From: Bartonella melophagi K-2C
Lineage (GTDB): Bacteria; Pseudomonadota; Alphaproteobacteria; Rhizobiales; Rhizobiaceae
Assembly (NCBI RefSeq): GCF_000278255.1
Contig: NZ_JH725081.1
Coordinates: forward strand, 224,484-288,483
DNA: 64,000 bases
Direction: 5' to 3'
The notes below the pieces were generated by a model. That model did not search any database. It saw nothing but the letters and a program-made list of their open reading frames with translations, and was not told where the DNA came from. Position 1 is the stretch's first letter. The number at the start of each line of letters is the position of its first letter. Of this stretch, positions 39,964 through 54,947 are shown piece after piece. The position numbers and the translations under genes were made by a program.

Positions 39964-40564
39964 CAATAACTCCCAAATGACGCAATTTAGCCAATAAAGG
40001 TAATAATGGTAAACCAATAATAGTAAAAAAATCTCCTTCTATTTTTTCAAAAAGATGGATTCCTTCTTTTTCAATTTGATATACCCCTACACTTTTTAAA
40101 ACATCCGCCCCTACACGCGTTAGATAACGTTCAATGAATTCTGATGAGAGAGAACGTACCGTCATATGAGCACTAAAAGCTTCAACCCAAATTTCTTGAC
40201 CATTTTTGACTAAAGCTATTGCACTATGAAGAGAATGTATTTTTCCTGATAAAGCACGTAATCGTTGATGTGCTTCTTTAATATTTGAAACTTTATGAAA
40301 AATCTTACCCTCCAGATCAAGTATTTGGTCACAACCAATAACTAATGCATGAGGAAAACGCTTAGAAACATTTTTTGCTTTTGCACTTGCAAGGAAACAA
40401 CTCGTTTCTTTAGGAGTTTTAGTCTTTATTTTCTCTTCCACTTTTCGTTCATCAAAAGAGGCAGCTTCAATGGAGAATTTTAAACCAGCTTTGTCTAACA
40501 ATTGTGCGCGATAGGAGCTAAGAGATGCTAATATTAACATATTTTCATCCATAATTTTTTTCAT
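39956..40564 (-). CDS. Maf-family nucleotide pyrophosphatase
   Basis: A 202-residue Maf/HAM1-superfamily protein that hydrolyses non-canonical or modified nucleoside triphosphates. The N-terminal [12 protein letters not shown] matches the SxSxxR box, FDERKVEE follows near 40, and [14 protein letters not shown] near 75 carries the catalytic Asp. The first four codons (MKKI) before MDEN may not be translated. It overlaps the upstream DUF299 gene by 4 bases and aroE by 8, so ppsR-maf-aroE-coaE-dnaQ form one coupled run. Confidence 0.9.
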
Positions 40565-41385
40565 CTTCTCTCACGAAATTGTGATAAAAGTTTAAATACC
40601 GCTGCTGCAGTTTCTTCAATAGAGCGTCTTGTTACATCAATGATAGGCCAACCAAAACGTTCATAAATACGTTTTGCATAAATCAACTCTCTAGCTATGC
40701 TGGTGCGATCAGTATAATTTTCAATAGCAAAATCTTCTCCCAAATCTCGATTTTGGCGAATATGTGAAATTCTTTCAGCCGAAGCAATTAAACCAACAAC
40801 TAAGATATTTTTTTCTTCTAAAAGAGTTTGTGGTAAATCAATTCCTGGAATAAGAGGTATGTTAGCAGTTTTTATTCCACGATTTGCTAAATAAATGCTT
40901 GTTGGTGTTTTAGAAGTTCTTGAAATTCCTACGAGAATTACATCTGCATCTAATACACTATCAGGAGATTGTCCATCGTCGTGCTCTATTGTAAAATTCA
41001 ACGCTTCAATACGGCGAAAATAATCTGCATTAAGACCGTGTTGCGCACTAGCACGTAAATTTGTTGGTGTTCCAAGATAAGACTGAAAAGCATTTAAAAC
41101 AGGATTTAAAATGGCAACACAAGGAATGCCTATTTTGGCACATACTTTACTGAGAAGTTGCTTCATTTCTTCATCAATAATTGTGTAAAGAACAATACCC
41201 GGCTCTTCTTGAATTTCATCAAGAATTTTTTGCAACTGTGTTTTATTACGAATCATCGGGTAAAGATGTTCTACTGCCTGATACATCGTGTATTGCGATG
41301 CAACAGCTCTTGCAGCAGAGATTAATGTTTCCCCCGTTGCGTCAGAAATCATATACAAATGAAAGCTTTTTTTTTCTTTTTGCAT
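40561..41385 (-). CDS. DUF299 regulatory kinase/phosphorylase of pyruvate phosphate dikinase (full copy)
   Basis: A 274-residue DUF299 protein (PpsR/PDRP type), the bifunctional enzyme that phosphorylates and dephosphorylates the dikinase PpdK or PpsA on a threonine. The P-loop-like box [10 protein letters not shown] lies near 151-160 and ERISHIRQNRD near 210. This is the first annotated gene (RP001) beside the origin in Rickettsia and is next to hemE and the origin in Caulobacter. Residues 1 to about 172 lie inside a tandem duplication; the intact gene is the left copy. A CtrA-type box begins 8 bases before its ATG. Confidence 0.93.
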   Translation of the reverse strand: MQKEKKSFHLYMISDATGETLISAARAVASQYTMYQAVEHLYPMIRNKTQLQKILDEIQEEPGIVLYTIIDEEMKQLLSKVCAKIGIPCVAILNPVLNAFQSYLGTPTNLRASAQHGLNADYFRRIEALNFTIEHDDGQSPDSVLDADVILVGISRTSKTPTSIYLANRGIKTANIPLIPGIDLPQTLLEEKNILVVGLIASAERISHIRQNRDLGEDFAIENYTDRTSIARELIYAKRIYERFGWPIIDVTRRSIEETAAAVFKLLSQFRERR

Positions 41386-41392
41386 AGAAATT

Positions 41393-41407
41393 TTAACTTC
41401 TTGTTAA
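41393..41407. promoter_or_regulatory. CtrA-type box (TTAA-N7-TTAA), left copy
   Basis: TTAACTTCTTGTTAA is a full match to the CtrA recognition pattern, placed directly before the DUF299 start and at the edge of the DnaA-box cluster. CtrA represses replication from the Caulobacter origin. A second identical copy lies at 42282-42296. Confidence 0.6.
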
Positions 41408-41755
41408 GAAATGTGCATAGAATTTCACAATTTATTTATAAAATAAAAACTTTTAAAAAATATTTTGTTATTATGCACAAACTAGACGACTGTGATAAAT
41501 AAATTTCTCTTCTAAAAAAGAATGGGGATAATATTTCTAAAGTATTTTTATTATTTACTTTTTTTTTCTCTTCTTTGTGGATAAAACTGAGGACGAAACA
41601 GTATAACTAATGATCCACATTAAACACAGGTTTTAATAAGAAGAATCCTTTTTTAAAACTATATTTTAATTTAGATTTTTTTAAAATTATAGTGATTAAT
41701 ATTCCAATTACAATAAAATAAAGTATAAATCTCTATTGTTATTATATAGATAATA
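41393..41755. other. Predicted chromosomal replication origin (oriC), left copy
   Basis: Upstream of DUF299 lies an AT-rich block with five DnaA-box-like 9-mers in 210 bases: TGTGCATAG at 41412 (one mismatch), TTATGCACA at 41471 (exact to TTATNCACA), TGGGGATAA at 41523 (one mismatch), TGTGGATAA at 41576 (exact) and TGATCCACA at 41611 (one mismatch). A CtrA box TTAA-N7-TTAA is at 41393-41407. To the left the genes run on the - strand, to the right on the +, and T/G-rich coding begins to the right. The DUF299 position matches Caulobacter and Rickettsia origins. Confidence 0.75.
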
Positions 41756-42274
41756 AGTTTTTATTCCACGATTTGCTAAATAAATGCTTGTTGGTGTTTT
41801 AGAAGTTCTTGAAATTCCTACGAGAATTACATCTGCATCTAATACACTATCAGGAGATTGTCCATCGTCGTGCTCTATTGTAAAATTCAACGCTTCAATA
41901 CGGCGAAAATAATCTGCATTAAGACCGTGTTGCGCACTAGCACGTAAATTTGTTGGTGTTCCAAGATAAGACTGAAAAGCATTTAAAACAGGATTTAAAA
42001 TGGCAACACAAGGAATGCCTATTTTGGCACATACTTTACTGAGAAGTTGCTTCATTTCTTCATCAATAATTGTGTAAAGAACAATACCCGGCTCTTCTTG
42101 AATTTCATCAAGAATTTTTTGCAACTGTGTTTTATTACGAATCATCGGGTAAAGATGTTCTACTGCCTGATACATCGTGTATTGCGATGCAACAGCTCTT
42201 GCAGCAGAGATTAATGTTTCCCCCGTTGCGTCAGAAATCATATACAAATGAAAGCTTTTTTTTTCTTTTTGCAT
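41708..42274 (-). pseudogene. C-terminally truncated duplicate of the DUF299 gene
   Basis: The right copy made by the tandem repeat. The first ~172 residues are identical to the full gene at 40561-41385, including the P-loop [10 protein letters not shown]; the frame then runs into origin DNA for about 16 unrelated residues ([15 protein letters not shown] end) and stops. The C-terminal third is missing, so normal regulatory kinase activity is unlikely. It keeps its own upstream region and ATG at 42274, so it may be transcribed and translated, perhaps as a dominant-negative partner, since family members dimerise. Confidence 0.9.
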
Positions 42275-42645
42275 AGAAATTTTAACTTCTTGTTAAGAAA
42301 TGTGCATAGAATTTCACAATTTATTTATAAAATAAAAACTTTTAAAAAATATTTTGTTATTATGCACAAACTAGACGACTGTGATAAATAAATTTCTCTT
42401 CTAAAAAAGAATGGGGATAATATTTCTAAAGTATTTTTATTATTTACTTTTTTTTTCTCTTCTTTGTGGATAAAACTGAGGACGAAACAGTATAACTAAT
42501 GATCCACATTAAACACAGGTTTTAATAAGAAGAATCCTTTTTTAAAACTATATTTTAATTTAGATTTTTTTAAAATTATAGTGATTAATATTCCAATTAC
42601 AATAAAATAAAGTATAAATCTCTATTGTTATTATATAGATAATAA
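41757..42645. repeat. 889-bp direct tandem repeat, unit 2
   Basis: Second unit of the duplication described at 40868-41756. After 42645 the sequence continues into unique AT-rich DNA toward rho. Because the intact DUF299 gene belongs to unit 1, unit 2 retains the original junction with the rho-side flank. Confidence 0.95.
42282..42644. other. Predicted oriC, right copy
   Basis: Repeats the five DnaA-box-like sites of the left copy at 42301, 42360, 42412, 42465 and 42500, with the CtrA box at 42282-42296. Unlike the left copy it is followed by about 310 further AT-rich bases (42646-42954), so if duplex unwinding needs that flank, this is the complete origin and the left copy the incomplete one. 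Confidence 0.7.
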
Positions 42646-42954
42646 TTATTAAATTAAAATTTAAAATATATGCATAATAATAAAAAAATAAAATTTAAGA
42701 TTATTCATTTAAGCAAGATAAGTTATTTTTATAGTATTTATTTAATTTCCAAACTTAATCATAATTATTACTTTTATTATTATTATTTTATTAAACACAA
42801 ATCCAAGCTAACAGAGTAACACTTGCAGTTTAAAAGAGTTAAGTGTATAATATTTATTTCTTAAATAAGAATATTTTATTCTTCAAATTTCTCATAAATT
42901 CATTGAATTTTTTATTCAAAAACAATTCCCCATTTTAATTAAAGAGAATATTTC
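42646..42954. other. Very AT-rich flank between the origin repeat and rho
   Basis: Long runs of A and T with no gene; includes ATTATTACTTTTATTATTAT-type tracts near 42765-42790. It could be the unwinding element of the origin and must also hold the rho promoter. hemE and hemJ, usual here in relatives, are absent with no trace. Confidence 0.5.
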
Positions 42955-44220
42955 ATGCAAGAAATGAAACTACAAGAGCTCAAAAGTAAAAACCCCGTTG
43001 AACTTGTTACTTTTGCTGAAACATTAGAGGTTGAGAATGCTTCATTAATGCGTAAACAAGAATTAATGTTTGCTATTTTGAAAAAACTCGCTTTACAAGA
43101 CGTAGAGATTATTGGGGAAGGTGTTGTTGAAGTTTTACAAGATGGGTTTGGATTTTTGCGATCTGCTGATGCTAATTATCTTCCAGGGCCTGACGATATT
43201 TATCTTTCTCCTGCACAAATTCAGTCTTTTTCTTTAAAAACAGGAGATACGGTTGAAGGTCCTATTCGTGGGCCAAAGGAGGGAGAGCGTTACTTTGCTC
43301 TTCTTAAGATTAATACAATTAATTTTGAAGATCCTGAGAAAATCCGCTATAAAATTCATTTTGATAATTTGACACCTCTTTATTCAAATGAACGTTTTCA
43401 AATGGAAATGCAAGATTCTACAAATAAGGATATGTCATCACGAGTTGTTGATTTAATATCTCCGTTAGGAAAAGGCCAAAGAGGATTAATTGTAGCACCT
43501 CCTCGAACAGGAAAAACGGTTTTACTACAAAATATTGCTCACTCTATTACAACTAATCACCCTGAATGTTATCTTATCGTTCTTTTGATTGATGAGCGTC
43601 CAGAAGAAGTAACAGATATGCAACGTTCTGTAACAGGGGAGGTAATTTCTTCTACCTTTGATGAACCAGCAATACGTCATGTACAAGTAGCTGAAATGGT
43701 TATTGAAAAAGCTAAACGCTTAGTTGAATATGGACGTGATGTTGTTATCCTCCTTGATTCTATTACACGTCTTGGACGTGCATATAATACGGTTGTTCCC
43801 TCATCAGGTAAGGTTTTAACAGGTGGTGTTGATGCAAACGCTTTACAACGTCCTAAACGTTTTTTTGGTGCAGCACGCAATATTGAAGAAGGTGGATCTT
43901 TAACTATTATCGCAACGGCTTTGATTGATACAGGTAGTCGTATGGATGAAGTTATTTTTGAAGAATTTAAAGGAACAGGTAATTCAGAAATCGTTCTTGA
44001 TCGTAAAGTTGCTGATAAGCGTATTTTCCCAGCTATGGATGTTTTAAAGTCAGGAACACGCAAAGAGGATCTTTTAGTAGCTCGTCAAGATTTACATAAG
44101 ATCTTTGTACTTCGTCGTATTTTGGCACCTATGAATGTAACAGATGCAATTGAATTTTTAATTGATAAATTGAAACAGACAAAAAATAATAGTGAATTTT
44201 TTGATTCAATGAACACTTAG
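42955..44220 (+). CDS. rho: Transcription termination factor Rho
   Basis: A 421-residue hexameric RNA helicase that ends transcription of untranslated RNA. The N-terminal Rho domain (about 1-45) and cold-shock RNA-binding domain ([15 protein letters not shown] near 56) precede the ATPase core with the P-loop APPRTGKT near 181, [12 protein letters not shown] near 211 and [11 protein letters not shown] near 267. ATG 42955 follows AAAGAGAA about 10 bases upstream. First gene of the rightward origin-proximal block. Confidence 0.97.
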
Positions 44221-45561: not shown

Positions 45562-45577
45562 TGATTCACGTGAAACT
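45562..45577. promoter_or_regulatory. parS-like ParB-binding palindrome, copy 1
   Basis: TGATTCACGTGAAACT in the gap between mnmE and mnmG; one mismatch to the 14-base parS core GTTTCACGTGAAAC. It lies about 3.4 kb from parB and 3-4 kb from the predicted origin, as expected for chromosomal parS. Confidence 0.75.
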
Positions 45578-47474: not shown

Positions 47475-48121
47475 TGACTTTCTTGATAGAACAAAAATAT
47501 CAGGATCTCTTAAATCTAGTTCCTTCTGTTTCACGTGAAACGATAGAAAATTTAATGAGATTCGAATCTCTTGTAATTCAATGGAATAAACGCATTAATT
47601 TAATATCTACTGCGACAGTACCAGTTTTATGGACGCGTCATATTTTAGATTCTGCTCAGATTTATCCTTTACATAATCAGTGTTTGCATTGGTGTGATTT
47701 TGGATCAGGAGGGGGTTTTCCCGCAATTGTTATTGCTATTCTTCTCAAAAATAAGGAAGGAGGACATATTGATTTGATTGAAAGCAATGGAAAAAAAGTA
47801 GCTTTTTTACGAACAGTCATTGCTCATCTGGATCTTCCAGCAACAGTTCATCATTGTAGAATTGAAGATGTATATCAGAAAATAAAAAAGCCAGAAGTTA
47901 TAACTGCGAGAGGTTTGGCTTCGTTGGATGTTCTTTTACAACTTTTATCTCCTTTGTTAACGCAAAAAACAATTGCTCTTTTTCAAAAAGGTCGGGATTA
48001 TATGACAGAAATAAAAAATGCCTCTGCCAATTGGCATTTTGATCTGCTAAAACATAAAAGTAAAATTGATACAAGCTCTGTTATCTTAGAAATTTCTCAT
48101 GTTCGATCATGTAAAGGGTAA
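47474..48121 (+). CDS. rsmG: 16S rRNA (guanine527-N7)-methyltransferase
   Basis: RsmG (GidB) methylates G527 of 16S rRNA using SAM. The 215-residue protein has NLISTATVPVLWTRHILDS near 39, the SAM motif DFGSGGGFPAIVIA near 74, and the conserved TARGLASLDVLL near 141. The gene contains a parS site at 47528-47543, so part of its sequence is under selection for ParB binding; the encoded residues there are SVSRET, usual in the family. parA follows after 6 bases. Confidence 0.95.
   Translation: MTFLIEQKYQDLLNLVPSVSRETIENLMRFESLVIQWNKRINLISTATVPVLWTRHILDSAQIYPLHNQCLHWCDFGSGGGFPAIVIAILLKNKEGGHIDLIESNGKKVAFLRTVIAHLDLPATVHHCRIEDVYQKIKKPEVITARGLASLDVLLQLLSPLLTQKTIALFQKGRDYMTEIKNASANWHFDLLKHKSKIDTSSVILEISHVRSCKG
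47528..47543. promoter_or_regulatory. parS site, copy 2 (perfect core)
   Basis: TGTTTCACGTGAAACG within rsmG contains the exact 14-base palindrome GTTTCACGTGAAAC recognised by chromosomal ParB. It lies 1.4 kb upstream of parB and 5 kb from the predicted origin, and should be a loading site for the ParB-CTP clamp that ParA segregates. Confidence 0.9.
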
Positions 48122-54096: not shown

Positions 54097-54947
54097 CAGG
54101 AATAATCCTTTTCATAAGCTCCTGTTAAAGGATCAAAAAGACCGTTGAATTCATATTCTGCTTGACCTGTCATGACAATATGGTTATCTTCTCGATAATG
54201 AATAGCAAGTGTTCCTCCTGGTAGATTTACATCAATATGGCGTTCAGTTAATCCACGTCGGTAAGCGGCTACAGCACTAGCACAAGCAGCACTCCCACAT
54301 GCTTTTGTTAATCCAGCTCCCCGCTCCCATGTGCGTAAGGTTAGACTTTTTTGTGATGTTACAAAAGCAGTAGAAATATTACACCGTTCTGGAAAAAGTG
54401 GGTCATGTTCAAGCTTTGGTCCATATTTTTCTAATGGAATAGATTGAATATTGTGATCAACGAAAAAAATAGCATGCAGATTTCCGACAGATACAAGGCA
54501 GGCATCTTGTAGGGGGCCGGCAGTTATTTTTACATGATTAGTATCGGCTATTTCGCGTGAAACAGGCATATCTTTTGCATTAAGATGTGGACACCCCATA
54601 TCAACGCAAATAAGACCATTACTTTGGCGTTCACCTTCAACAATTCCGGCAGGTGTTTCTAATCGAAAGCTTTTATTAAGGGTGTGATTTGAGAGCCATT
54701 CGATAACACAACGTGTACCATTACCGCAGGCTTTTGCTATTGAACCATCAGCATTCCATATTTCGATGCGAAAGTCTGTATCATTTTGAATTGGTGGATG
54801 AATAGCCATAATTTGATCAAAATGTGTTTGGGGATCTACAGCTAAGGTAAAAATTGCTTGTGGTGTTATGTTATGTGCGCTTTCACGCATATCAGCAACA
54901 ATGATTTGATTTCCAAGACCATTCATTTTGCTGAAAGGTATCTTCAT
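54096..54947 (-). CDS. dapF: Diaminopimelate epimerase
   Basis: DapF interconverts LL- and meso-diaminopimelate for peptidoglycan and lysine. The 283-residue protein carries both catalytic cysteines, Cys74 in ACGNGTRC and Cys217 in ACGSAACA. MNGLGNQIIVADM forms the N-terminal signature. The epimerase is presumably essential, so it is kept in a genome that has lost amino-acid biosynthesis genes such as argG and trpA. It begins the dapF-mtaB-ftsY-yciB run. Confidence 0.96.
   Translation of the reverse strand: MKIPFSKMNGLGNQIIVADMRESAHNITPQAIFTLAVDPQTHFDQIMAIHPPIQNDTDFRIEIWNADGSIAKACGNGTRCVIEWLSNHTLNKSFRLETPAGIVEGERQSNGLICVDMGCPHLNAKDMPVSREIADTNHVKITAGPLQDACLVSVGNLHAIFFVDHNIQSIPLEKYGPKLEHDPLFPERCNISTAFVTSQKSLTLRTWERGAGLTKACGSAACASAVAAYRRGLTERHIDVNLPGGTLAIHYREDNHIVMTGQAEYEFNGLFDPLTGAYEKDYS

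Follow-up and report, generated by a model that had tools for sequence, protein, structure and literature searches.

Among natural duplications of a bacterial origin of replication, the closest described case is DU1 of Mycobacterium bovis BCG, which denotes tandem duplications spanning oriC and measures 14,577 bp in BCG Danish (PMC6615170) and 29,668 bp in BCG Pasteur (PMC2448323). A clinical isolate carrying a 7-kb oriC region in triplicate has also been reported; the authors describe the region as prone to duplication and take the identity of the copies to suggest that both are functional (PMC6615170). In the alphaproteobacteria, the origins of Caulobacter, which has been mapped, and of Rickettsia adjoin a gene of COG1806, the group that holds DUF299, and are described as containing DnaA boxes and CtrA sites of the form TTAA-N7-TTAA (PMC1914354). 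The Bartonella origin has been placed by GC skew (PMC5156944, PMC11091102), and one of these studies, on an ant-gut relative, states that its authors could find no DnaA boxes there (PMC5156944). A search for a duplicated origin in Bartonella, covering titles and abstract openings of the open-licence literature, gave no such report among the papers listed. Here, we analyze a locus of Bartonella melophagi K-2C at which the predicted origin is written twice in the assembly. It lies within a window of 64,000 nucleotides (the whole stretch that was analyzed; contig NZ_JH725081.1, positions 224,484 to 288,483), and coordinates refer to this window unless stated otherwise.

RESULTS

An exact tandem repeat of 889 bp

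A script run over the window showed positions 40867 to 41756 to be the same as positions 41756 to 42645, i.e., 890 bases recur at an offset of 889 with zero mismatches and zero gaps; this is the sole exact direct repeat of at least 30 bases in the window. The left copy (unit 1, 40867 to 41755) comprises the 5' 173 codons of an intact DUF299 gene, an origin core, and an AT-rich segment of 107 bp. The identical right copy (unit 2) occupies positions 41756 to 42644, the match extending one base further to 42645. At the joint (41755 to 41757) the breakpoints of the 889-bp units have one base (A) in common and no longer homology, which rules out homologous recombination between flanking repeats. 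The window contains no N, and the joint is gapless. When the whole genome was searched, the unit was found at 100% identity in exactly two places, and a pattern search located the sequence across the joint a single time. A preceding reading of the sequence alone had proposed an identical tandem of 889 bp at positions 40868 to 42645 with a joint at 41756/41757; the repeat was borne out, and its limits are correct to within the one base that the units have in common there. The duplication is read from one draft assembly of 13 contigs, representing one genome of the species.

Genes at the locus

The intact DUF299 gene (COG1806; PF03618, kinase/pyrophosphorylase) lies on the reverse strand at positions 40561 to 41385, encodes 274 amino acids, and has its 5' part inside unit 1; its product is 93% identical to the homologue of Bartonella sp. 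WD12.1. The portion contained in each unit amounts to 519 bases, or 173 of 274 codons. In the second position this portion forms a truncated gene for 188 amino acids (41708 to 42274, reverse strand), 173 of them identical to the intact protein and 15 derived from origin DNA. Being cut at residue 173 and covering profile positions 1 to 164 of 256 (PF03618), the truncated copy is probably non-functional. Terminator-like hairpins are present in the DUF299 coding region at 41037 to 41055 and 41126 to 41141 and in the second copies of these segments (4 versus a shuffle mean of 0.8).

The right flank is formed by rho (transcription termination factor; 42955 to 44220, forward strand), and a conserved block resembling the rho promoter (42822 to 42853, forward strand) is found outside the unit in single copy. 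A promoter scan of the region yielded 16 promoter-like matches, no excess over the mean of 14.6 in shuffles. To the right of the origin, near gidA/gidB, there are three parS-like sites (45562 to 45577, 47527 to 47542, and 54549 to 54564), a number that none of 100 shuffles gave. A mobile element or phage as the source of the repeat was ruled out, the scanned flanking genes (DUF299, maf, and rho) not being of such a kind; it is also contradicted by the unit itself, which consists of host sequence only and is single copy in relatives.

The duplicated locus as the predicted chromosomal origin

Along contig C1, which carries the locus, all 12 samples on the left side of the locus had a negative GC skew, and 14 of the 15 on its right side had a positive one, the remaining sample being at -0.014. 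The main chromosome of the Bartonella genome G037 is a single contig numbered from this DUF299 gene onward; all 10 samples from its first half had a positive skew, and all 10 from its second half had a negative one. For a comparison across the genus, the DUF299-rho spacers of 38 relatives were aligned together with that of the window reduced to a single copy, 39 sequences in all. The columns of the DnaA boxes were 0.89 to 0.98 identical and those of TTAA-N7-TTAA 0.97, compared with 0.77 in the remainder of the core and 0.42 in the right-hand spacer. The sign change of the skew and the genus-wide conservation of the boxes make the assignment of the duplicated locus as the predicted origin well supported. 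The skew switch, both here and at the start of the G037 record, supports this designation by the sequence-only reading, and the repeat, the genome search, the skew, and the conserved boxes agree with identical head-to-tail copies spanning the predicted origin.

The genus-conserved origin core occupies positions 41386 to 41648 in copy 1 and 42275 to 42537 in copy 2, which is identical. Sites within one mismatch of TTATNCACA were counted as DnaA-box-like. Each core contains one CtrA-type site TTAA-N7-TTAA (41393 to 41407; copy 2, 42282 to 42296) and six DnaA-box-like sites: D1 (CTATGCACA, 41412 to 41420, reverse strand; copy 2 at 42301), D2 (TTATGCACA, 41471 to 41479, forward; copy 2 at 42360), D3 (TTATCCCCA, 41523 to 41531, reverse; copy 2 at 42412), D4 (TTATCCACA, 41576 to 41584, reverse; copy 2 at 42465), D5 (TGATCCACA, 41611 to 41619, forward; copy 2 at 42500), and D6 (TTAAACACA, 41620 to 41628, forward; copy 2 at 42509). 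Two of the six, D2 and D4, are perfect TTATNCACA boxes. The CtrA box noted earlier was found in each unit, whereas the accompanying count of five DnaA-box-like sites was one too low. An additional TTAAACACA is located at 42791, outside the unit. The spacer alignment also displays a conserved AATAAGAAGAAT-like block after D6, on which we build no DnaA-trio claim.

Six sites were reached in none of 1,000 dinucleotide shuffles of the 263-base core (mean, 0.40). Elsewhere, five such sites within 230 bp were present in one stretch among 552,608 bases sampled, and a high number of boxes would therefore not by itself be proof of an origin; the TTAA-N7-TTAA motif is frequent in this AT-rich DNA, with 50 occurrences in 945,030 sampled bases.

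When the weakest 100-bp helices of the window were chosen at least 150 bp apart, each origin core was found to be adjoined by one of the two weakest. The candidate unwinding element of copy 1 (41654 to 41753) is the second weakest and that of copy 2 (42603 to 42702) the weakest; the right breakpoint (42644/42645) falls within the latter. Ahead of the joint, the AT-rich DNA of the left copy amounts to 107 bp (11% GC), and the right copy continues into the full spacer. Judged by these features, both units are structurally complete, each having every genus-conserved origin element and a weak-helix segment of its own.

Distribution among relatives and apparent age of the repeat

A DUF299 match was obtained in 70 of 71 genus genomes, this one included; G063 gave no match. 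Of the other 69 genomes with a match, 68 have a single one and G062 has two, which are complementary pieces on two contigs, and a tandem partial copy occurs in none of the 69. The nearest of the 70 other genus genomes searched, G037, is 96% identical over the first 822 query bases. The DUF299-rho spacer measures 493 to 740 bases, with no doubling seen, in the 38 of the 70 relatives for which both spacer ends were available. Order-wide, 166 of 199 genomes have a PF03618 match, and three have two: this genome, G092, and G144. Neither of the latter is a second tandem origin; G092 carries two PF03618 genes, both of full length, on separate contigs (L158 and L160), and G144 has one gene split across two neighboring frames.

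The two units do not differ at any position. By comparison, the unit differs from its counterpart in G037 by 58 mismatches in 887 aligned positions (plus 13 gap columns), and from those in G040 and G012 by 96 and 107 differences, respectively. If half of the 58 mismatches are assigned to this branch, the duplication would be younger than approximately 5% of the branch, barring gene conversion. A recent origin, one of the two options put forward in the initial reading, is probable.

These data also bear on the idea that the doubling was selected, two DnaA/CtrA platforms usefully shifting the timing of initiation. It would fit the fact that all conserved elements are doubled and that the rho promoter-like block is single. 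Yet the doubling is seen in one genome of a species whose relatives are single copy, the units lack any divergence that would be a sign of age, and the DnaA titration envisaged by the sequence-only reading would be small. Specifically, 45 perfect TTATNCACA sites in 945,030 sampled bases correspond to about 75 expected per genome, to which the second unit contributes 2 more; on these numbers, titration was rejected as the principal effect. We consider selection for two platforms very improbable.

A genuine joint versus an assembly error

A perfect tandem at a single place in a single genome is what one assembly fault would look like as well. In that case, only one unit would exist in the isolate, the other being a product of the assembler or of gap filling, perhaps aided by a raised read depth near the origin. 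The absence of differences between the units and of the doubling from every relative searched would both follow. To gauge the assembly, 59 further stretches of this genome were sampled (971,616 bases, including 26,586 N). Six gaps of exactly 100 N were present; at four of them the flanking ends overlap exactly, by 28, 54, 83, and 29 bases, and the other two lack an overlap of at least 10 bases. Exact 95-base repeats were found beside other N runs in three stretches. The unmerged overlaps and the 95-base repeats indicate that this assembly was able to write one sequence twice. In stretches L124, L131, L135, and L152, where contig ends overlap at 100-N gaps and remain unmerged, lengths and genes are doubled.

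The origin repeat differs from these cases. The longest terminal overlap in the 59 stretches is 95 bases, always across N, versus 889 bases without any N at the origin joint, i.e., a repeat ninefold longer. No other gapless exact whole-unit tandem was present in these stretches among the repeats listed (at least 50 bases, up to five per stretch). Two gapless repeats that are not exact whole-unit tandems, one of 731 exact bases at an offset of 1317 in L131 and one of 432 bases at an offset of 804 in L135, are probably repetitive genes. Overlap joining alone would also leave unexplained why the unit so neatly spans the conserved origin. The 95-base contig edges point to an assembler of the de Bruijn type run at K = 96; the default K of ALLPATHS-LG is 96. 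An assembler of this type would need reads carrying the joint in order to write it, which favors a real joint, albeit not necessarily exactly two units. Taken together, we regard a purely artifactual second unit as possible but rather unlikely.

A related alternative is that the culture is mixed or unstable: some of the cells would have the joint, whether in chromosomes with one, two, or more units or in an 889-bp circle, and the assembler wrote two. A circle and a tandem repeat would yield an identical joint sequence, and the oriC duplications of BCG vary among substrains of one vaccine, one isolate having the triplication described above (PMC6615170). Such a mixed or unstable state could not be demonstrated from a single assembly, and we judge it improbable.

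DISCUSSION

We think it likely that the repeat is genuine, that the entire core origin of the Bartonella chromosome was duplicated in tandem very recently through an illegitimate join, and that the second copy is probably redundant. The join would have linked the AT-rich unwinding segment of one copy of the origin to the DUF299 gene of a sister copy at an origin that had just fired, when both sister arms were present; a join with one end in the predicted unwinding segment fits an accident in this setting. DnaA and CtrA should be able to bind both units. Whichever unit fires, the other, 889 bp away, would be copied passively and almost at once, so that the chromosome would still behave as one with a single origin, and initiation timing would change modestly at most. 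The intact DUF299 gene would retain the first 370 bp of its upstream DNA, and the truncated copy would be junk. Without selection, one unit is expected to be lost by recombination between the repeats.

If the duplication is real, it represents a gene-free natural doubling of a minimal origin in an alphaproteobacterium and would support the idea that tandem duplication readily affects origins. A stronger version, in which cells use both of the complete, minimal oriC cores, 0.9 kb apart, and the unit number varies in the population, appears unlikely to us; if it held, no smaller natural oriC duplication would be known, and the locus would offer a ready test of the way in which a CtrA-type cell cycle deals with a pair of origins. 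Should the second unit be an assembly fault, the public record of the species has a wrong origin, which matters to anyone mapping or cloning it.

Comparison with known origins

As in the bipartite oriC of Helicobacter pylori, DnaA boxes at the locus form more than one cluster; the parts of the H. pylori origin, however, are described as different and cooperating (PMC8235120), whereas the Bartonella copies are identical and would by design be independent of each other. The resemblance to Caulobacter Cori extends to the DUF299/COG1806 flank (PF03618), the DnaA-box cluster, the TTAA-N7-TTAA CtrA site, and the AT-rich segment, and the change in GC skew expected of a Caulobacter-type oriC was found here too. 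In contrast to Cori, the right-hand neighbor is rho rather than hemE, each unit has one CtrA site as opposed to five, and the origin is present twice (PMC1914354).

The closest parallel is DU1 of M. bovis BCG, a recent natural tandem across the origin whose copies show no sequence difference and which varies between substrains (PMC6615170). The two differ in extent and content. DU1 spans 7 to approximately 30 kb and includes dnaA, dnaN, and other genes, whereas the Bartonella unit is 0.89 kb long and holds no complete gene, being made up of part of DUF299 and the origin core. The dnaA-dnaN genes are outside the unit, dnaA being located about 137 kb from the duplicated origin (C1:128127-128612). 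A real duplication at this locus would allow origin number to be told apart from dnaA dosage; the BCG duplications do not permit this, since in them dnaA and dnaN are doubled as well.
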